A stretch of DNA of 64,000 nt, taken from the NCBI RefSeq assembly GCF_002288825.1, contig NZ_NSLI01000001.1:62001-126000 (forward strand), in the 5' to 3' direction. Source of the DNA: Sphingomonas lenta (GTDB lineage: Bacteria > Pseudomonadota > Alphaproteobacteria > Sphingomonadales > Sphingomonadaceae). Positions within the stretch are counted from its first letter, which is position 1. Each line of letters begins with the position of its first letter. This document shows positions 222-29,044 of this stretch, piece by piece. Under the pieces are notes generated by a model that was given only the letters and a program-made list of their open reading frames with translations, made no database searches and was not told the DNA's origin. The position numbers and the translations under genes were made by a program.

Positions 222-1525
222 TGCGGAATGTCGCCGCGCTGACGACCGGGCTGCTGCTCGCGGCCTGTGTCGGCGGGGGTACGCCGCCTCCGTCTGCTCG
301 TTCCGCCCCGGTCGCCGCTCCCGCGCCGCGCGCGCCTGTTACGCGTAGCGCCGGCGCGCCGGCCGTGTGGCCGCCGGCCCCCGTGGTGCGGATCACGCCC
401 GCGACGCCGTTGCCGGCGGCTCCGGCGGTGGTGCCCGCGGGTGCGGCGACGGCCGCCGCGTCGGGTGTGCTGCCTGGGCCGCGCGTCGCGGACCTGCCGA
501 TGACCGAGGCGCAGGCGGAAGCCGGGCGCGTCGCGTTCCTGACGAGCTGTCCCGGGCTCCAGCGCCGCACGGACGCGTCGGGCCTGGCGCGCGGGGCCGA
601 CTGGAAGCCGGCCTGCGACGCGGCGCGCGCGGTCCAGCCGGGCGGCGCGCGCGACTTTTTCGCCCGCTATTTCGAGGCGGTGCAGGTCGGCGACGGCAAG
701 GCGTTCGCGACCGGTTATTACGAACCGGAGATCGCGGGCTCGCGCGAGCGTCGGCCCGGCTACGACGTGCCGATCTACGCGCGGCCCGACGACCTGGTCG
801 ACGTCGATCTCGGCCAGTTCGCCGACAATCTGAAAGGCCGCACGATCCGTGGGCGCGTGGCCGGCGCGAAGTTCGTGCCCTATTACGAGCGCACGCAGAT
901 CGAGGAGGGCGCGCTCGACGGCAAGGCGCGCGTGCTGGCCTGGGCGGCGGACCCTGTCGAGTTCTTCTTCCTGCAGATCCAGGGTTCGGGGCGGCTCAGG
1001 CTGCCTGACGGGTCGGTGATGCGGATCGGCTACGACACGCAGAACGGGCGGGCCTACACCGGCATCGGGCAGCTGATGCGGCAGCGCGGGCTGCTCGCAC
1101 CCGGGCAGGCGTCGATGCAGGGGATCGTCGCGTGGCTGCGCGCGAACCCGGAAGCTGGGCGCGATCTGATGCGCGAGAACAAGAGCTTCGTCTTCTTCCG
1201 CGAGATCACCACGGAGCCGATCGGCGCGATGGGTTACCCGGTCACGGGTCGGGTGAGCGCGGCGGCGGACCCCAAGTTTACGCCGCTGGGCGCGCCCGTG
1301 TTCCTGTCGCTCGACCGCGCGGACGCGACGGGGCTGTGGGTAGCACAAGATACGGGCGGCGCGATCAAGGGCGCCAACCGCTACGACACCTTCTGGGGCG
1401 CAGGCGCGGAGGCCGAGGCGATCGCAGGCGGCATGTCCGGGCGGGGCACGGCGTTCCTGCTGCTGCCCGTGGGCACGCTCGCGCGGCTGGGAGGGGCCGG
1501 TGGCGGGGCGTTCGCTCAGCCCTGA
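221..1525 (+). CDS. mltA: Membrane-bound lytic murein transglycosylase A
   Basis: A 434-residue lipoprotein that cleaves peptidoglycan glycan strands and forms 1,6-anhydromuropeptides. The start at 221 is chosen because it gives a clear lipoprotein signal (TGLLLAAC, lipidated Cys16) and overlaps the preceding stop by one base; upstream in-frame starts would bury the signal. After a Pro/Ala-rich linker to about residue 120, the MltA domain carries TGYYEPEI and a core running through IQGSGRL. The C-terminal 3D domain has AQDTGGAIKG and a DTFWG segment containing conserved aspartates of the barrel. The end overlaps the following smr gene by 26 bp. Family assignment is firm; in vivo role is by homology. 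Confidence 0.95.
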   Translation: MRNVAALTTGLLLAACVGGGTPPPSARSAPVAAPAPRAPVTRSAGAPAVWPPAPVVRITPATPLPAAPAVVPAGAATAAASGVLPGPRVADLPMTEAQAEAGRVAFLTSCPGLQRRTDASGLARGADWKPACDAARAVQPGGARDFFARYFEAVQVGDGKAFATGYYEPEIAGSRERRPGYDVPIYARPDDLVDVDLGQFADNLKGRTIRGRVAGAKFVPYYERTQIEEGALDGKARVLAWAADPVEFFFLQIQGSGRLRLPDGSVMRIGYDTQNGRAYTGIGQLMRQRGLLAPGQASMQGIVAWLRANPEAGRDLMRENKSFVFFREITTEPIGAMGYPVTGRVSAAADPKFTPLGAPVFLSLDRADATGLWVAQDTGGAIKGANRYDTFWGAGAEAEAIAGGMSGRGTAFLLLPVGTLARLGGAGGGAFAQP

Positions 1526-4844: not shown

Positions 4845-5510
4845 TCAGCTGGTGGCCGGCTGCTCGTACTGCTGGATGACCCAGTCTTCCTCCTGCGCGC
4901 CGGCGATCCAGTCCTGCATGCACTTGTGGTTGAGGACCGCGTCCATGTAAGGAAGCGCGAACCGGGCGACGGGGAGCTGGTAGGTGACGATGCGCGTCAC
5001 CACGGGCGCGTACATGATGTCGGCGGCACTCCACTCGCCGAACAGGAAGTCGCCCGTCCCGCCGAACCGTGCGCGCGCCTGCGCCCAGAGCTCCATGATG
5101 CGGGCGAGTTCGGCGAGCACGTCGTCGTCGGGGCGCTTGGCCGGGAACTGCTGGCGGATGTTCATGGCGTGCTTGCGGCGCAGGCTTGTGAACCCTGAGT
5201 GCATCTCGGCGGCCATGGAGCGCGCCATCGCGCGGGCGGCGTCGTCGGCGGGCCAGAAGCGGTCGCGGCCGACCTTGTCGGCGAGATACTCGACGATCGC
5301 CAGGCTGTCCCAGACGACCGCGTCGCCGTCCCACAGGATCGGGACCTTGCCGCTGGATGGCGCGAACTCCGCGCCCTCGCGGCGCTTGTCCCAGTCCTGG
5401 TCGTAGAGGGGGACGACCACCTCTTCGAAGGGGAGGCCGGAGTGCTTGCACGCGAGCCAGCCGCGCAAAGACCAGGATGAGTAGGCCTTGTTGCCGATGA
5501 TCAGCTTCAT
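4845..5510 (-). CDS. Glutathione S-transferase family protein
   Basis: A 221-residue cytosolic GST. The N-terminal thioredoxin fold begins MKLIIGNKAYSSWSLRG, where the serines of SSWS are the likely catalytic type, and contains the glutathione-contacting cis-Pro segment GKVPILWDGDAVVWDSLAI. The all-helical C-terminal domain follows from about residue 85. The start at 5510 is the canonical N-terminus; a longer upstream frame lacks homology. It lies 37 bp downstream of the ATP-grasp-like gene on the same strand and may be co-transcribed. The substrate is unknown. Confidence 0.85.
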   Translation of the reverse strand: MKLIIGNKAYSSWSLRGWLACKHSGLPFEEVVVPLYDQDWDKRREGAEFAPSSGKVPILWDGDAVVWDSLAIVEYLADKVGRDRFWPADDAARAMARSMAAEMHSGFTSLRRKHAMNIRQQFPAKRPDDDVLAELARIMELWAQARARFGGTGDFLFGEWSAADIMYAPVVTRIVTYQLPVARFALPYMDAVLNHKCMQDWIAGAQEEDWVIQQYEQPATS

Positions 5511-5547: not shown

Positions 5548-6888
5548 TCACCGGAGTTTCTTGTCGACCATCGCCTGGAACGCCGCAGAGACGCGCTCCG
5601 CATTCCCGTCGGCCGGGCCGAGGTCGTGGCGCATGGCGGCGTCGAGCCCGAACACCAGGACGCCGTCGGCGGTCGGCGCGAAGTCGACGCCGACGTAATC
5701 GAGCCGCGTCGCGACGCAGACGGCGCGGAGCGCGGACCAGCGGCGCGCGCCAAGCAGCTTGGCGGGATCGGCGAGATAGTCGCGCTCGTCGTCGCGCAGG
5801 CGCTCGTCGGCGAGCATCGCGCGGCGATCGGTCGAACGGACGCGCCACTCGTCGGAGCCGAGCAAGGCGACCGGCACGAGCTTGCCGTCGACCAGGACGG
5901 CGCGCGCCTTGCGATAGGTGCCGTGCGCGTCGCGGGCGTCCTCGAAGGAGGCGATGTGGAAGTCGGTCGCGGAGGCGAGCCGCGCCGTCAGCGCGTCGCG
6001 GTCGGCGACGAGCTCCAGCGGCTCCGTGCCGACCTCGCGGGCGAGGAAGGGGTAGGCGAAGTCCCGCTCGATCGCTTCCGCCGACGCGTCGCGACCGTAG
6101 CGCCTGACGGTGGGGAAGCGCACGCTGGCGATGCCGCCCATCAGCGCCGCGGCGCGGTCGGGCGCGGTGCGGGCCACGGCTTCGGGACGGTTGATCACCG
6201 GCACGCGCGGTTGGGCGGCCAGATGGCGGCCGATCGCGTCGAGCGCGGGTGCGCCGAGATCGGGGCTGGCGACGGTGTTGATGATGAGCGCGGGCGTGCC
6301 GGCGACGGCGAACGACCGCTCGTCGTCGAACAGGTTGACGGCGGCGATCCGGCGCGCGGAGACGTCGATCAGGCGCTCGAGCGGGAGATGGCCTCCCTTG
6401 AACCTGCCCACGAAACCGCGCTCGCCCCGGAAGCGCAGCTCGAATCGGGCCGCGTCCATGCTGCGGGTCTTGAGGATCAGCGGCGCGTCGGGCGCGGAGG
6501 GCGACATGACCACGGGCGCGGCCTTGGCGGCGATGCGGCGCAGCGCGGCGGCGGTGGCCGGGTCGCCCGCTTCCAGCCGCAGCGCCGAGCGGGTCAGCAG
6601 CGTTTCGTAGTCGTAGCGCGGGCCGGCGAGGTCGAGCAACTCCTCGGCCTGGGCGAACGCGCCGACGCGCACCGCGTCGAAGGCGAGCGCCGCGAGGCCG
6701 TCCGGGCTGCCGCCGACGAGCCGCAGCACCGCCTCCTTGGCGAGCGCGGCCTGCCGCTCGTTCCCGAGCGCCACCATCTCGTACCACAGCCGCAGCCGCG
6801 CGAGCGGGCTGTGCGGCGTCGCCCGGATCATGGCGAGGGCGTCGATGGGGCTGGCCGGGCCGGCGGCGCGGATCGTGTCGTGGCGCAT
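5548..6888 (-). CDS. Probable ATP-grasp-like protein with helical N-terminus
   Basis: A 446-residue protein that I recognise only in outline. The N-terminal ~110 residues are Ala/Leu-rich helices with TPR-like spacing (for example ALAFDAVRVGAFAQAEELLDL). The C-terminal ~250 residues contain features of an ATP-grasp fold: a central YPFLAREVG segment before an acidic stretch, a DGKLVPVALLGSDEWRV segment resembling ATP-grasp strands, and GVDFAPTADGVLVFGLDAAMR, which parallels the metal-binding end of such enzymes, although the usual Glu-x-Asn is replaced. Function is unknown; peptide or acyl ligase is a possibility. No signal peptide is seen. Confidence 0.6.
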   Translation of the reverse strand: MRHDTIRAAGPASPIDALAMIRATPHSPLARLRLWYEMVALGNERQAALAKEAVLRLVGGSPDGLAALAFDAVRVGAFAQAEELLDLAGPRYDYETLLTRSALRLEAGDPATAAALRRIAAKAAPVVMSPSAPDAPLILKTRSMDAARFELRFRGERGFVGRFKGGHLPLERLIDVSARRIAAVNLFDDERSFAVAGTPALIINTVASPDLGAPALDAIGRHLAAQPRVPVINRPEAVARTAPDRAAALMGGIASVRFPTVRRYGRDASAEAIERDFAYPFLAREVGTEPLELVADRDALTARLASATDFHIASFEDARDAHGTYRKARAVLVDGKLVPVALLGSDEWRVRSTDRRAMLADERLRDDERDYLADPAKLLGARRWSALRAVCVATRLDYVGVDFAPTADGVLVFGLDAAMRHDLGPADGNAERVSAAFQAMVDKKLR

Positions 6889-6941
6889 GCGCCCCGCCTA
6901 AGCCGTGCGCGTAAAGAAGCGGTGCACGCGGCGGCGCGGCG

Positions 6942-7808
6942 TCAGCCGCCGGGCGTCCCGCTCCGCGACACGTCCCAGGTGGCCAGCGTCGCGCCGGTGG
7001 TCGGGTTCTCGATCGCGACCTCGGCGAAGGAGACGGAGACGAGGCAGGTCGGGCGGCGTTCGGGGCCGCCGACGGCGCGGCAGACGATCGGGCCGTCGCC
7101 GGGCGCGGGGGTGACGCGGCCGGTGAGGCGCAGACGCAGCCCCTGGGCGAGGCTTAACGCGTCGGGCGCGACGCGCTCGGTCGCCTCGAACGCCTCGCCG
7201 CGGCTGCGGCCCAGGCGAGAGCCGCCGACGGTGTGAAACTGCGCGACGGCCAGCGTCTGCTCGTCGGGCGCGCCGCCCGCGCCGAGCGTCGGGTTCGACG
7301 GACAGGCGTCGCTCACCGTCCAGGGCCGCGGGATCCAGAAGCCTTCGACGGTCTCCACCTGCTCGACGGACCGGAGCGGGACCCACGCGCTGGGCTCCCA
7401 GAGGACGGGCTGGGCGCGGACGCGCAGGGTTTCCGCGGCTTCGTCGTAGCGCCAGCCGAGCGGCGCGTTCAGCACCGCCGACGGTCCCGCGCAGCCGAAC
7501 GCCATGCTGAGCTCGAACCGACGGCCCGCCAGTTCGGCGACTTGCGCCGGCGCGGGCCCGCCGGACGCGAAGGCGTCGGCCGCGAGCCGGGCAGCCTCGA
7601 GCAGCGCCGCGCGGTCGAGCGCCGTCCGGACGACGGGGGTGGGCGAGGGGGTCGGCGTCGGAACGGGGAGGGGCGCGGGGGTGGCGACCGGTGCGGGCTC
7701 GGGCGCGGCGGCGCGGCCGAGCAGGAAACCCGCCGCCAGCAGGCCCAGCGACGCCGCGACGCCGCCCGCGAGCGCGAGGCGGCTGGTTCTGCGGCTTGGC
7801 TCCACCAT
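6942..7808 (-). CDS. Hypothetical membrane-anchored protein
   Basis: A 288-residue protein of unknown family. It has one N-terminal hydrophobic segment (about residues 11-32, ALAGGVAASLGLLAAGFLLG), then a Pro/Thr/Ala-rich linker (to about 60) and a soluble C-terminal domain with two cysteines near FGCAG and SDACPS and two more near PIVCRAVGG and RRPTCLVSV, suggesting a disulfide-stabilised periplasmic domain. It is divergent from the SLC13-type permease gene that starts at 7904. No enzymatic motif was found. Confidence 0.7.
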   Translation of the reverse strand: MVEPSRRTSRLALAGGVAASLGLLAAGFLLGRAAAPEPAPVATPAPLPVPTPTPSPTPVVRTALDRAALLEAARLAADAFASGGPAPAQVAELAGRRFELSMAFGCAGPSAVLNAPLGWRYDEAAETLRVRAQPVLWEPSAWVPLRSVEQVETVEGFWIPRPWTVSDACPSNPTLGAGGAPDEQTLAVAQFHTVGGSRLGRSRGEAFEATERVAPDALSLAQGLRLRLTGRVTPAPGDGPIVCRAVGGPERRPTCLVSVSFAEVAIENPTTGATLATWDVSRSGTPGG

Positions 7809-7903
7809 GCCCCGCTGATAGCAGATCGGGGCTGGACCTCCACCCCGGAGGTTTGACCGGGAGCATCCGCCATCGGCCCGTCCGCCCCACGAGACCGGCG
7901 CGC

Positions 7904-9205
7904 GTGAGCGTCGACCAGATCATCACGCTCGCGGTGCTCGTCGCGGTCGTCGCCGCGCTGATCTGGGATCGGGTGCGCGCGGACGTGGTGGCGCTGGCGG
8001 GTGCGGCGGTGCTGCTGATCACGGGCGTGGTGCGGCCGGTCGAGGTGCAGGGCGCCTTCGCCAGCCCCGCGATCATCGCGCTCGCGAGCCTGTTCGTCAT
8101 CGCTTACGCGCTCGAGCTGTCGGGGCTGCTCGACCGGGTGATCGCGGCCGGGGTGGCGCTGTGCCGGCGGATCGGGGCGGCGGGCATCTGGCTGCTGATC
8201 GGCATATCGGGCGCGCTGTCCGCGTTCCTCAATAACACGCCGATCGTGGTGCTGGGCGCGCCGGTGGTGCGCGATGTGGCGAACACGCTGAAGCTGCCGC
8301 CCAAGCGTTACCTGATGCCGCTGAGCTATATGGCGGTGCTGGGCGGGTGCTGCACGCTGATCGGCACGTCGACCAACCTGCTCGTCAACGACATGGCGCG
8401 CGTGTCGGGGCAGCCGCAGTTCGGGCTGTTCGAAATCACGCCGGTCGGCGTCACCGTCGCGCTAGCGGGTGCGGCGTACCTGTTCCTGTTCAGCGGCAAG
8501 CTGATGGGGGGCGAGGACGGGCGAAAGCCGGTCGCGGACGTGCCCGCCGAGTCGGACGTGTCGGACGCGCATGTCGGCGCGGCCGAGCTGTTCGCCGAGC
8601 CGCGCCCGTTCCAACCGGCGCGCGCCTTTACCGCGCTGGCGGTGTTCGTCGGCGTGATCGCCGCGGCGGCGCTGGACGTGGTGCCGATCGCGGCAGCGGC
8701 GTTCGCGGGCGCGGTGCTGCTGATCCTGTTGCGCGTGATCAGCGCCGACGAGGCCTATGGCGGACTGCGGCCCGAGATACTGATCCTGATCGCGGGCATG
8801 GTGGTGGTCGGCATCGCCATGGAGGAGAGCGGCTTGGCGGCCGACGCGACGCGCGCTTTGATCGGCACGATGGACGGGGTGGGGCCGCTGACCGCGCTGA
8901 TCGTGCTCTACGGCGCGACGCTGGTGCTCACCGAGCTCCTGTCCAACGCGACGGTGGCGGTGCTGGTGACGCCCGTCGCCGTGGCGCTCGCCGAGAGCCT
9001 GGGGGTGAGCCCGCGGCCGTTCCTGGTCGCGGTGATGATGGCGGGCAGCGCCGCGTTCGCGACGCCGTTCGGCTATCAGACGAACGTGATCGTGTTCCAG
9101 ATGGGCGGGTACGGCTATACCGACTTCGTGCGCGTCGGGCTGCCGCTCAACCTCCTGACCATGGCGGCGGCGGTGGTTGCGATCCGGCTGTTCTTTCCGT
9201 TCTGA
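7904..9205 (+). CDS. SLC13/ArsB-type anion permease
   Basis: A 433-residue polytopic inner-membrane permease of the divalent-anion:sodium symporter / ion transporter superfamily. The two repeat signatures are recognisable: SAFLNNTPIVVLGAPVV with GTSTNLLVND in the N-terminal half, and LTELLSNATVAVLVTPVAVA with FATPFGYQTNVIV in the C-terminal half. Many homologues of this SNNTP type carry TrkA-C regulatory domains between the halves; here the cytosolic loop (about residues 205-235) is short and they are absent. The GTG start at 7904 is chosen because it begins immediately before the first membrane span. The substrate is unknown (sulfate, dicarboxylate or arsenite are known in the family). The next gene starts 7 bp later. 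Confidence 0.85.
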   Translation: MSVDQIITLAVLVAVVAALIWDRVRADVVALAGAAVLLITGVVRPVEVQGAFASPAIIALASLFVIAYALELSGLLDRVIAAGVALCRRIGAAGIWLLIGISGALSAFLNNTPIVVLGAPVVRDVANTLKLPPKRYLMPLSYMAVLGGCCTLIGTSTNLLVNDMARVSGQPQFGLFEITPVGVTVALAGAAYLFLFSGKLMGGEDGRKPVADVPAESDVSDAHVGAAELFAEPRPFQPARAFTALAVFVGVIAAAALDVVPIAAAAFAGAVLLILLRVISADEAYGGLRPEILILIAGMVVVGIAMEESGLAADATRALIGTMDGVGPLTALIVLYGATLVLTELLSNATVAVLVTPVAVALAESLGVSPRPFLVAVMMAGSAAFATPFGYQTNVIVFQMGGYGYTDFVRVGLPLNLLTMAAAVVAIRLFFPF

Positions 9206-9212
9206 GGGGTAA

Positions 9213-9599
9213 GTGGCGGACGATCATCCTAGGGGCGAGAAGCGGACCGAGCTGGCGGACGACCGGACTTCGCTCGCGAGCGACCGGACGATGCTGGCGA
9301 GCGAGCGGACGCTGGCCGCGTGGTGGCGCACGGTGATCGCGTCGCTGGCGGCGGCGATCGCGCTGGTGAAGATCTACGAGGAGGTGGAGCCCGCTTGGGC
9401 TGTGCGCGCGGCGGCGACGGTGCCGGTCGCGCTGGCGCTGGTGATCCTGTTCGTGGCGGCGCGGCGCTACACGAGGACGGCCAAGCGCATCGAAAGCGAA
9501 TGCGTCGAGCGTGTGCCGCGCGCCGAGCTGTGGGTCGGCACGGCGCTCCTGTTCCTGCTCTGCCTCGCCGCCGGATGGGCGGTCTGGACGCTGCGGTAG
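9213..9599 (+). CDS. DUF202 (YidH-like) membrane protein
   Basis: A 128-residue inner-membrane protein. The repeated motif RTSLASDRTMLASERTLAAWWRT is the hallmark of DUF202/YidH proteins, followed by three predicted membrane spans ending at the C-terminus. The function of the family is not established. The GTG start is 7 bp after the SLC13-type gene, so the two probably form an operon. Confidence 0.85.
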   Translation: MADDHPRGEKRTELADDRTSLASDRTMLASERTLAAWWRTVIASLAAAIALVKIYEEVEPAWAVRAAATVPVALALVILFVAARRYTRTAKRIESECVERVPRAELWVGTALLFLLCLAAGWAVWTLR

Positions 9600-9601
9600 G
9601 A

Positions 9602-9835
9602 TCAGCCGAGAGCCGGGTAGGCGAGGCGGAGGCGCGACAGCGGGACCAGCGTCTCGTTCCGGTAGGTGACGGGTTCGCGGATCCAGGCGGTCTCGCCTTC
9701 GATCGCGACGATCTCGTAGATGGCGCCGCGGTTGGTGCCGATCTGCACCAGGCTGCCACGCTCCTTGGGGCTGTTGCAGCCGGTGGCGAAGCGGTGGTCC
9801 GGGCAGAGGACGTCGGCGTAGCCGGTCATGTGCAT
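9602..9835 (-). CDS. Conserved small protein, paralogue 1
   Basis: A 77-residue soluble protein preceded by a strong AGGAGG ribosome site. It contains YADVLCPDHRFATGC with two cysteines six to eleven residues apart, KERG, a small beta-rich core (VYE/IYE-V-A-EG) and a basic C-terminus RNETLVPLSRLRL. It is about two-thirds identical to the product of 9952-10185, so the pair is a local duplication. No function is known to me; the size and beta-rich sequence suggest an SH3-like small barrel, which is only a guess. Confidence 0.75.
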   Translation of the reverse strand: MHMTGYADVLCPDHRFATGCNSPKERGSLVQIGTNRGAIYEIVAIEGETAWIREPVTYRNETLVPLSRLRLAYPALG

Positions 9836-9951
9836 GGTTTTCCCCTCCTGTGCGGAGACGATGCGCGGGAAGAGTTAAGGGGTGGTTAGGGCGTCGGAAC
9901 GTGACCCCGAAAGCGCGCGAGCGCGGCGACGGCGCGTCCGCGCGGCCCGGG

Positions 9952-10185
9952 TCACGCGGCCAGCGGTTCGGCCAGCCGCAACCGATGGAGAGGCACCAGC
10001 GCTTCGTTCCGGAACGTACGCGGCTCGCGAACCCATGCGGTTCCGCCTTCCACCGCGACGACTTCATAGACCGGGCCCGTGTTGCTGCCGATCCGCACCA
10101 GCGTGCCCCGCTCCTTCAGGGCCTCGCACCCCGTGCTGAACCCGAAATCCGGGCACAGCACGTCCGCATAGCTACTCTTACTCAT
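9952..10185 (-). CDS. Conserved small protein, paralogue 2
   Basis: A 77-residue paralogue of the protein at 9602-9835; it keeps YADVLCPD, TGC, KERG, the EG-TAW-REP core and RNEALVPLHRLRL. The ATG at 10185 is preferred to a GTG two codons upstream because a G-rich ribosome site is then at proper distance and the length equals that of its sister. About 115 bp separate the two genes, so each may have its own promoter. The 10192-10379 stretch upstream shows nothing I can name. Confidence 0.75.
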   Translation of the reverse strand: MSKSSYADVLCPDFGFSTGCEALKERGTLVRIGSNTGPVYEVVAVEGGTAWVREPRTFRNEALVPLHRLRLAEPLAA

Positions 10186-10379
10186 GTTCACATCCCCCCC
10201 GGGACATCCGGGCCATCAACGAACGTCCCTGGTTAGCAAGGGGATGATGAAGGCCCGTTGAACGTGAAGCTGCTCCGGCGTCACAAAATCGTCAAGAGTC
10301 GACGCGCGCGGTTCGTCGCAGAATGGCCGGGTCGGTTATAAATCGTTTGCGGGTGTGGCGCGGCGGACTCACCTCCGGG

Positions 10380-11033
10380 TCAGCCGATCGCCTCCAGCAC
10401 GGCCGCGCGCAGCTCGGCGATGCCCATGCCGCCTTCTGACGACGTCGCGATCACCTCCGGGTGCGCGGCGGGACGGCGGCGCGCCTCCTGCTCCGTGCCG
10501 CGGCGGACCGCGTCGAGATCGGTCGCCTTGACCTTGTCGGCCTTGGTGAGGACGAGCCGGTAGCTGACGGCGGCGCGGTCGAGCATGTCGAGGATCTCGC
10601 GGTCGACGTCCTTCACGCCGTGGCGCGCGTCGATCAGCACCAGCGCGCGCTTCAGGACCGCGCGGCCGCGCAGGAAGTCGTTGACGAGGTAGCGCCATTT
10701 CTTGACGACCTGCGGCGGGGCTTTCGCGAAGCCGTAGCCGGGCATGTCGACGAGCCGCAGGCGAGGCGGCTCGCCCACGTCGAAGAAGTTGAGCTCCTGC
10801 GTGCGGCCGGGCGTGTTGGACGTGCGCGCCAGGCCGTTCCTGTTCGCGAGCGCGTTCAGGAGCGACGACTTGCCGACGTTGGAGCGGCCGGCGAAGGCGA
10901 TCTCCGGTGCGTCGGCCGGCGGCAGGAACTCTAGCGACGGCGCGGAGCGGAGGAAGCCGACCGGGCCGGCGAAGAGCTTCCGCGCGGCCTCGATCAGCTC
11001 CTCCCGATCCTCGGAAGGAGCCTCGTCGGTCAC
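10380..11033 (-). CDS. ysxC: Ribosome biogenesis GTPase YsxC/EngB
   Basis: A 217-residue TRAFAC-class GTPase needed for large-subunit assembly. The G1 loop is [12 protein letters not shown] (residues 49-60), the switch region [10 protein letters not shown]3 DMPGYGFA, G4 TKADK and G5 around ATSS. The GTG start overlaps the yidC stop by 4 bp (GTGA), placing it last in the rpmH-rnpA-yidD-yidC-ysxC operon. A longer in-frame extension back through yidC to 11981 is an artefact. Confidence 0.95.
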
Positions 11034-12736
11034 TTCGCCGGCGCTCCCACCATCTCGGGGTGCCGCGCGTACAGGATGCGCTGCTGCAGGATGCCGAGCA
11101 GGTTGGACGTGATCCAGTAGATCTGCAGCCCCACCGCGAACGGCGCCATGACGAACATCAAGACCCAGGGCATAATCTTGAACACCTGCTGCTGCGTCTC
11201 GTCCATCGGCTGCGGGTTGAGCTTGAACTGGAAGTACATGGAGACGCCGAGCAGGATCGGGATGATGCCGATGCCGATATACGCGGGCGGCGTGAAGTCG
11301 AGCAGGCCGAACAGGTTGACCGGCGTCAGCGGGTCGGGCGCGGACAGATCCTTGATCCAGCCGACGAAGGGCTGGTGACGCATCTCGATCGCGAGCATCA
11401 ACACCTTGTATAGCGCGTAGAAAATCGGGATCTGGAGGAGCGTCGGCAGGCAGCCGGCGAGCGGATTGACCTTCTCTGTGCGGTAGAGGGCCATGACCTC
11501 CTGCTGCATCTTGACCTTGTCGTCCTTGTAGCGGTCCTGCAGCGCCTTCATCTTGGGCTGAAGGCGGCGCATCGCGGCGGCGGACTGGAACTGGCGCTGC
11601 GCTATGGGGAAGACGAGCAGGCGGAAGGTGACGGTCAGGAGGATGATCGCCACGCCGAAATTGCCGACGAGGCGGAACAGCCAGTCGAGATAGTAGAAGA
11701 TCGGCTTCTCGATGATCTCGAACCAGCCCCAATCGATGGCTTGGTTCAGCATGGTCGCGCCTTCGCGATCCGTGTACCGGTCCAGCAGCCTGACCTCTTT
11801 CGCCCCGGCAAAGAAATGGCTCGTTTGCGTCAGAGCCGCTCCAGGGGCGAGGCTCTGAGGGGCGGCGGTGAAGTCGGCCTGGAAAGCGTTGTTGGGACCC
11901 GGACGGAACTGACCGTCGAACGGGCGCCTCTGATCGGGGAGCAGCGCAGCGAGCCAGTACAGGTCGGAGTAGCCCAGCCACCCGCCGGTCGTGGTGAAAC
12001 GCTCCGGGCCATCTTCGCGCAGATCGTCGTAGTTGGGCGCGTAGCGCGCGTTGCCGTTACGCACCGACATCGGACCGACGTGGATGGTCATCGTGTCGTT
12101 GTTGACCTGCGGCGCCTGGCGGTTGACGAGGCCGAAGCTGGAGACGGACACGGGCCGCGGGCCGCGGTTGAGCACCGTCTGGCGGACGGTGAACATGTAC
12201 GCGTCGTCGACCGCGAGCTGGATCAGGTACTGCTGGCCGTTTCCGCCGGGCGCGGTGAGCGTGACGGGCCGGCCGGGCGCCAGCACCGGCGACGACGCCG
12301 TCCAGCGCGCGTCGAGCGCGGGGGGGCTGAGGCCCTGGCCGCGCCACGTCCAGGCGGCGAAGTAGCTGTCGCGCGTGCCCGCGGGCGAGAGCAGGCGGAT
12401 GGGCGGCGCGTCGCGCGTGATGTTCTCGCGGTGACGGACGAGCACCAGGTCGTCGATGCGCGCGCCTTGAAGATTGACGGAGCCGCGCAGGGTGGGCGTC
12501 TCGATGCGGACGCGCGGCGTCTCGCGCAGCACCTGAGCGCGGTCGCGGATCGCGGCGGGGGCGTCGGCGGTGGGATCGGCCTGAGGCTGGGGCAGGGGGA
12601 CGGATTTGCCGTCCTCGATCTTGGTCACCGGCGGACGCGCGGTCGGGAAGAAATATTCCTGCACGAGCGGCCAGCCGAACAGGATCAGTCCTGCTATCAC
12701 CGCGAACAGGACGAAATTGCGACGGTCTTCGGTCAC
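11030..12736 (-). CDS. yidC: Membrane protein insertase YidC
   Basis: A 568-residue Oxa1/YidC-family insertase of the inner membrane, working alone or with SecYEG. It has the proteobacterial layout: first membrane span ([15 protein letters not shown]), a large periplasmic beta domain (about 60-330), and the conserved C-terminal five-helix core starting near [19 protein letters not shown] with the [10 protein letters not shown] cytoplasmic loop. The start is GTG, 7 bp after yidD. The C-terminus ends in GAPAK and overlaps ysxC. Confidence 0.97.
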
Positions 12737-27224: not shown

Positions 27225-29044
27225 CGCGCGGCGCACACGGCGTAGCCGAAGGCGGGGAGGGTCAGCTGGACCGAGCCGGGCGCGCTCGCCTGCGCGGCGC
27301 AGGGGCCGGCGAGCGCGTCGAACGCGGCCGAGCGGACCTCGACTTCGACGGGCGTGGTGATCGGCTGGTTCGACGTGTTGAACGCCAGCAGCACCTCGCG
27401 GTTGGTGGTCGGGTCGAAGCGCGATACGGCGAGCAGGCCGGGCTTGTCGCCATAGGCGCGCATGACCTGGCGGCCGCGGGTGAGGGCGGGGGTGCCCAGC
27501 CGCACGCGCGCGAGACGGGCGATCTCGGCATAGACGGGGTGCTGCTGGTCGAAATTGGCCTGCGCCGTCGTGGCGGCGGTGCCGATCAGCTTATTGTCGT
27601 TGTAGATGGCGACGCGGCTCGGGAACATGTCCTCGCGCGCGTCCTGGTCGCCGCCGTCGCCCGTGAAGCCCTGCTCGTCGCCCGAGTAGATGGTCGGCAC
27701 GCCCCGTAGCGTCAGCAGCATGGCGTGGCCGAGCAGGTCGCGGGCGAGCAGCTCCTGGTCGCTCGCGCTCGGGTTCGCTCGGCGAAGGAAATAGCCGATG
27801 CGGCCGGCGTCATGGTTGCCGAGGAAGGTGGGAAGCCTGCGCGCGGTCTCCTCGCCGCCCTTGTAGAGCTGGTCGCCGCGGAAGATGCGAAAGGCGTCGC
27901 TGGTCGGCTTGCCTTCCGCGACGATGCCGCCGACGCCGACCTGGAAGGCGAAGTCGAGCACGGTCGGCAGGTCGTCGTTCCACGTGTGCCAAGCGAGGCG
28001 GCCGGGGTCGATGTCGCCCATCGCGACCTCGCCGAAGATGTGGAAGTTGGGAATGCCGCGGAGCTTCGCGCGCTGGCGCATGGCGGGCACGAACTCGCGC
28101 CAGAACTCCGGATTGACATGCTGGGCGGTGTCGATGCGGAAGCCGTCGACGCCGTACTTGTCGATCCAGTCGCCGAAGATCTCGATCATGCCGCGTATGA
28201 CGCGCGGGTCCTCCGTCATCAGATCGTCGAGGCCGGAGAAGTCGCCCATGGTCGAGCTCTCGCCCGCGAAGGTCGAGTTGCCGCGATTGTGGTAGAGCGT
28301 GAGATCGTTGAGCCAGGCGGGCGTCTTCGAGTTGCGCTCGGCCGCGGAGACGTAGGGCGTGTAGGCGTAGTTGGGGTCGGTCAGGCGCGCGAAGTTTTCG
28401 CTCGTCTGGACGTCGTCGCCCAGGAAGCCCCCGTTGATCGGCCGGCCGGCGAGGCCGCCGCGGCGCTGATACGGATAAGCGGCGCGGCCGCGATACTCGC
28501 AGGGCGTGCCGACGCCACACTCGCGCAGCTGGATCACGTCGGCGGTGTGGTTGGCGATGATGTCCATATAGACCTTCATGCCCCGCGCATGCGCCGCGTC
28601 GACAAAGGCCTTCATGTCGGCCTCGGTGCCCAGATGCGGGTCGACGGTGGTGAAGTCGGTGATCCAGTAGCCGTGATAGCCGGCGGACTCCTGGCCCTTC
28701 GGGCCCTGGACGGGCTTGTTCTTGAAGATCGGGCCCAGCCAGATCGCGGTCGCGCCGAGGCCGCGGATATAGTCGAGCCGCGCGGTCAGCCCCTTGAGGT
28801 CGCCGCCGTGGAAGAAGCCCTTGTGCGTCGGGTCGAACCCGGTCTGGAGCCGACCTCCGCGCAGGCCGCCGCGGTCGTTCGACGGGTCGCCGTTCTCGAA
28901 GCGGTCAGGAAGGACGAAGTAGATCACCTCGTCCTCGGGCAGGCGGTCGCGATAGTCGGTGACACCCGCGGGCGGGGCTGTCTGCGCCAGGGCGGGCGCG
29001 GCGAGGCCGAGGGCGAGCAGGGGGAGGGCGAGATGCTTGATCAT
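27221..29044 (-). CDS. Secreted GH13 alpha-amylase
   Basis: A 607-residue exported alpha-amylase-family enzyme (signal MIKHLALPLLALGLAAPALA). The (beta/alpha)8 barrel runs from VIYFVLPDRFENGD; conserved regions include DIIANHT, GFRIDTAQH with nucleophile Asp305, FGEVAMGD with Glu339 and LGNHDAGR with Asp412. A pair of cysteines (176, 182) lies in an inserted loop. The C-terminal beta domain ends in CAAR. It overlaps both neighbours by ATGA junctions, which implies tightly coupled translation with the halogenase-family gene before it and the GH13 glucosidase after it. Likely role: trimming maltodextrins in the periplasm or at the surface. Confidence 0.93.
   Translation of the reverse strand: MIKHLALPLLALGLAAPALAQTAPPAGVTDYRDRLPEDEVIYFVLPDRFENGDPSNDRGGLRGGRLQTGFDPTHKGFFHGGDLKGLTARLDYIRGLGATAIWLGPIFKNKPVQGPKGQESAGYHGYWITDFTTVDPHLGTEADMKAFVDAAHARGMKVYMDIIANHTADVIQLRECGVGTPCEYRGRAAYPYQRRGGLAGRPINGGFLGDDVQTSENFARLTDPNYAYTPYVSAAERNSKTPAWLNDLTLYHNRGNSTFAGESSTMGDFSGLDDLMTEDPRVIRGMIEIFGDWIDKYGVDGFRIDTAQHVNPEFWREFVPAMRQRAKLRGIPNFHIFGEVAMGDIDPGRLAWHTWNDDLPTVLDFAFQVGVGGIVAEGKPTSDAFRIFRGDQLYKGGEETARRLPTFLGNHDAGRIGYFLRRANPSASDQELLARDLLGHAMLLTLRGVPTIYSGDEQGFTGDGGDQDAREDMFPSRVAIYNDNKLIGTAATTAQANFDQQHPVYAEIARLARVRLGTPALTRGRQVMRAYGDKPGLLAVSRFDPTTNREVLLAFNTSNQPITTPVEVEVRSAAFDALAGPCAAQASAPGSVQLTLPAFGYAVCAAR

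Follow-up and report, generated by a model that had tools for sequence, protein, structure and literature searches.

Two adjacent small open reading frames of Sphingomonas lenta, here called A and B, were analysed within a stretch of 64,000 nucleotides (the window), and with moderate confidence we read them as members of an accessory family of SH3-like binding modules borne by phages and plasmids, acquired and kept by the host, and not as a metal-binding pair. The family has no name in the libraries searched and comprises proteins of 72-81 residues with a variable N-terminal tail and a predicted SH3-like five-strand barrel. The pair is real and probably under constraint; its fold class is ordinary and its distribution unusual. 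These genes look imported, like genes of mobile elements, because the genome holds four copies, relatives elsewhere are few and one of those resides in a bacterial virus. What appeared to be a host protein pair is in this way placed in a rare family with members on a phage, on a plasmid and near mobile genes, which provides a testable case of a small mobile protein accumulating in one strain as several diverged copies.

ORF A (9602-9835, minus strand) encodes 77 residues from an ATG and is the first family member in the window. ORF B (9952-10185, minus strand), the second, also encodes 77 residues from an ATG; the open reading frame list starts it at an alternative GTG at 10191, giving 79 residues, and the ATG lies two codons inward. 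The earlier note had described two similar 77-residue products retaining a set of motifs, and this description was borne out. The two proteins are identical at 49 of 74 positions (66%) in a gapless BLASTP alignment, their alignment score of 269 far exceeds that of 2000 shuffles of B (mean 23.4, standard deviation 4.6, maximum 51), and LCPD..TGC, KERG, EG-TAW-REP and RN-LVPL-RLRL each occur in A and B alike. At the DNA level the similarity is confined to the coding part (184 bases at 73.5%), the only stronger match being that of the shared intergenic stretch against itself. The gap between B and A (9836-9951, minus strand, 116 bases) carries a ribosome-binding-like stretch, AGGAGGGG, just before A; no match to a sigma-70-type promoter was found in 9200-10450.

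A search of the whole genome returned four family copies in total, adding copy C (C3:532,491-532,712) and copy D (C6:4,356-4,571). One more match, on C9, was weak (E 1.08) and was put down to chance. C and D form the closest pair (74% identical residues, tree support 90), and both have mobile-element genes in their vicinity. Next to C are a serine recombinase gene and an excisionase-like HTH/PIN pair, and two integrase genes lie at a distance of 6.5-9 kb. The gene beside D encodes a C5 cytosine DNA methylase; that of a Vsr mismatch endonuclease lies 2 kb off, and some 450 bp from D the opposite strand carries a terminase-small-like gene. The region L006:9468-18644 is a possible island: it spans copy C, the serine recombinase and the excisionase-like HTH/PIN-domain pair, and the two integrases in it are adjacent and of the tyrosine type. 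L007:1893-5639 around D may be a phage remnant or a modification island.

The viral relative was found by scanning IMG/VR and is a 72-residue protein, 62% identical over residues 4-72, encoded by an unnamed ORF at 27,770-27,991 of IMGVR_UViG_3300034024_000090 (minus strand in the record; 4995-5213 of the extract L042). All viral scans that gave matches returned this same single contig and further scans were empty; among 50,697 named phage records (INPHARED) there was no family match. The contig is an uncultivated tailed phage, on which PHROGs identified a replication initiator and the small and large terminase subunits, and which also encodes a head protease, a head decoration protein, a major head protein, a tail terminator, a tail fibre and, weakly (E 9e-4), a tape measure. 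Its large terminase had no match in the S. lenta genome at E 1e-5. The phage member keeps the barrel motifs and both cysteines of A and B. Unlike A and B, it is present as a single copy in its record and stands near the terminase genes, just upstream of them (small subunit at L042:5580-6179). Before the small terminase gene lies an ORF of 68 residues (L042:5210-5416), the start of which overlaps the stop of the family member; it has no Pfam or PHROGs match and could encode a partner protein.

The plasmid relative is an unannotated ORF of 80 residues on plasmid NC_011143.1 of Phenylobacterium zucineum HLK1 (1207-1446, minus strand; L014:4001-4243), whose alignment covers 99% of B with 37% identity (E 0.3). 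It was accepted as a distant relative on the strength of a search in the S. lenta genome, where the four top-ranking matches are precisely A, B, C and D (E 1.9e-6 to 4.4e-4, the next being 0.055). It resembles A and B in length and in its barrel motifs, but differs from them in having no cysteine at position 11 or 20 and in its location between partition and replication-initiation genes. Annotation may simply have overlooked a gene here, although the gene table consulted for the plasmid is incomplete. Other plasmid matches were rejected: one in Methylobacterium (E 0.9) covers a stretch that the family profile does not recover, one in Rhizobium (E 0.6, 39% query cover) falls inside a response regulator, and eight more are partial with E values of at least 0.6, of which seven fall within annotated genes and the last comes from an unannotated record.

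The group searches of cellular genomes overlapped in their genomes, and each count includes the S. lenta genome itself. This genome alone gave matches among all 295 genomes of the genus at E 1e-3 (profile A1), and among 61 relatives at E 1e-3 with A alone as the query; it was likewise the sole match in samples of 286 genomes from the order (E 1e-4) and 289 from the phylum (E 5e-4). Two extra weak matches appeared in 397 family-level genomes and two in 250 genus genomes, and all four were judged to be chance. Those at the family level lie opposite a longer ORF (G085, E 0.0013) or inside one and with an internal stop (G186, E 0.0023); those in the genus lie opposite an ORF that we take to be histidine-kinase-like (G995, E 3.3e-5) or contain a stop (G860, E 0.002), and both were absent at E 1e-3 from the 295-genome search with the other profile (A1). 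Fourteen of 385 class genomes gave weak matches (E 0.001-0.05): for L022, L033 and L035 the DNA frames show no full-length family-like ORF, and the other eleven were dismissed by score, having low bits and partial cover. Two scans of genome contigs found no relative; they needed exact short peptide patterns and so covered close relatives only. The search for homologues and copy number that the earlier note proposed has accordingly turned up relatives outside the strain, on one phage contig and one plasmid, and, in its own genus, family and order, four copies in its own genome and no other accepted match.

From this rarity and from the neighbours of the copies we infer import. Mobile elements would have brought the genes in, either in several arrivals or in one followed by duplication, and purifying selection would then have retained them. 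In this way the strain would have come by its four copies, and the chromosomal pair A and B, neighbours of each other and of engB, would be a retained import.

How far selection acts was assessed by codon comparison. For A and B it gave a dN of 0.298, a dS of 1.127 and a dN/dS of about 0.26, which is some evidence for the earlier proposal that selection maintains both genes. When C, D and the phage gene are included, the resulting ten pairs have dN/dS values between 0.26 and 1.10, the high ones being A-C at 0.69 and A-D at 1.10. The comparison of A and B suggests purifying selection and an old split, the other pairs being mixed and giving no even sign of constraint. The high values of A-C and A-D may perhaps arise because the GC3 of A and D, near 0.95 in both, hides silent change. 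The GC3 of A is 0.94 and that of B 0.79, a difference compatible with, but not proof of, different residence times. DNA identity is 0.67 for A-B, 0.68 for A and the phage gene and 0.69 for A-D. A protein tree groups A with B at a support of 72, weak for ultrafast bootstrap, and this grouping is missing from the nucleotide tree; a tandem duplication, the relationship proposed in the earlier note, is one interpretation of the pair.

The dN/dS of the pair, its grouping in the protein tree at that weak support and the high GC3 of A would also fit a host-domesticated regulator that arose by an old tandem duplication in place and whose role is tied to its neighbours, in membrane protein insertion or transport. 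Those neighbours are ordinary. The end of A lies two bases from that of a convergent DUF202 gene (9213-9599, plus strand); upstream of B lies a gene (10380-11036, minus strand) that, from its sequence, we take to be engB, with a presumed yidC beyond it, and a CitMHS-type transporter gene is also nearby. No mobile gene adjoins A and B, nor is there a recognisable prophage around them. These features count against our own reading, as do the missing match to the phage's large terminase and the small number of relatives, one on a phage and one on a plasmid. Against a domesticated regulator, 17 engB loci of the same genus were scanned to a distance of 1.5 kb, and none of them has A, B, the DUF202 gene or the transporter gene at an E value under 1e-3. 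The nucleotide tree also lacks the A-B grouping, and a terminator-like site separates engB from B (10304-10290, minus strand), though 0.4 such sites are expected by chance where this one was found. We therefore consider domestication in place rather unlikely and continue with the reading of A and B as imported modules.

What such modules might do was approached through their structure. AlphaFold was run on B and on A with three-row alignments (A, B and the phage protein). The best models of A and B both have a mean pLDDT of 71, with the first 19-21 residues below 50, and each run gave one confident model of five (71 against 58 or below for B, 71 against about 50 or below for A). Approximately residues 22-74 are predicted to form an SH3-like five-strand barrel both in A (9614-9772, minus strand; pLDDT 77-90 in ten-residue blocks over residues 21-70, lower after 70) and in B (9964-10122, minus strand; pLDDT 74-89 in the same blocks, lower after 70). 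The strands agree between the two best models (29-32, 39/40-46, 49-53, 62-65 and 69-71). The models thus support the small beta-rich folded module that the earlier note had suggested and proposed to check by structure prediction, and A and B probably fold into a small SH3-like beta-barrel.

Structural matches were to Tudor (PHF1), KOW (Spt5), PWWP, KapB and R67 DHFR structures, which are tied at Z scores of up to 6.8, none reaching 8, and the best Foldseek match in the PDB is weak (E 0.023). These proteins share with the models of A and B a small five-strand barrel arrangement over about 50-60 residues, but a search of PDB sequences gave no sequence relation (best E 0.3). As the matches are both tied and weak, no function was transferred from them. 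The top BFVD match, the nameless A0A516LTS4, is 34% identical at E 0.0096. Pfam and PHROGs were run on all six members and NCBIfam on A and B: for A and B none of the three gave a match up to E 10, and across the six members there was one weak Pfam match (E 0.11) and one PHROGs match (E 0.18), each for one member. The fold is our ground for proposing binding, and with the place of the genes it suggests that the barrel would bind nucleic acid or a protein partner and that the phage protein might serve as an accessory factor around genome packaging or late expression, not as an enzyme. Nucleic-acid binding, which the earlier note had raised, is possible for an SH3-like barrel of the predicted kind.

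The earlier note had made paired cysteines the hallmark of the proteins, suggested metal binding as one role and named beforehand a lack of cysteine conservation as evidence to the contrary. The sequence places the codons from Cys11 to Cys20 (LCPD..TGC) at 9776-9805 in A and 10126-10155 in B, both on the minus strand and in stretches modelled with low confidence. LCPD..TGC becomes FRLD..TGC in C and FRID..TAC in D, so that Cys11 is missing from both, and the plasmid relative has its two cysteines elsewhere, in the barrel part. Cys11 is accordingly present in three of the six members and Cys20 in five, and with such variation at the two positions the family cannot be defined by the pair. A metal site as a family-defining feature was rejected on these counts, and the cysteines would not be essential to the fold. 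It is still conceivable that the three proteins with both residues, A, B and that of the phage, bind zinc through Cys11 and Cys20, either along with further ligands or between the subunits of a dimer, making the proteins metal sensors or zinc-dependent nucleic-acid binders. The loss of Cys11 from half of the members weakens metal binding, as do the absence of Cys20 from one, the presence in A and B of only two cysteines each, nine positions apart and with no CxxC, the lack of any Pfam or NCBIfam match for such a module and a pLDDT mostly under 50 across the cysteine stretch. We hold the metal-binding module to be improbable, and a likely over-reading of the paired cysteines as a metal site is hereby corrected.

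If A and B are instead retained imports, as we prefer, a more specific use for them can be imagined. The host copies might be proteins from a packaging neighbourhood that were kept and interfere with incoming related phages, acting as a multi-copy decoy against the terminase or late expression. This would explain the four diverged copies, their absence from the rest of the genus genomes searched and why the phage member and D both sit near terminase-small genes; we regard it as a long shot.

That A and B are small enzymes with the R67-like fold of type II dihydrofolate reductases is scarcely credible. In its favour, R67 DHFR appears among the structural matches (Z 6.0, rmsd 2.8, 52 aligned; Z 6.3, rmsd 2.7, 55 aligned); but these rows are tied with the Tudor, KOW and PWWP rows, the place of VQIY, the active-site stretch of R67 DHFR, reads EALV or ETLV before a shared proline when aligned by eye, and there is no Pfam match to such a family.

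The locus itself also offers some support for import. Of the 17 same-genus engB loci, 7 have downstream of engB, at a distance of no more than about 0.7 kb, a gene that we take to be of the GST type; this count was filtered on codon-position GC, with the other ten loci incompletely described and the flank of L052 slightly shorter. In the window, engB and the GST-type gene stand about 4.8 kb apart, with A and B in the intervening DNA. This stretch, 5548-10370, consists of a presumably ATP-grasp-like ORF, the CitMHS-type transporter gene, the DUF202 gene, A and B, and its position between engB and the GST-type gene looks like an insertion-prone spot.
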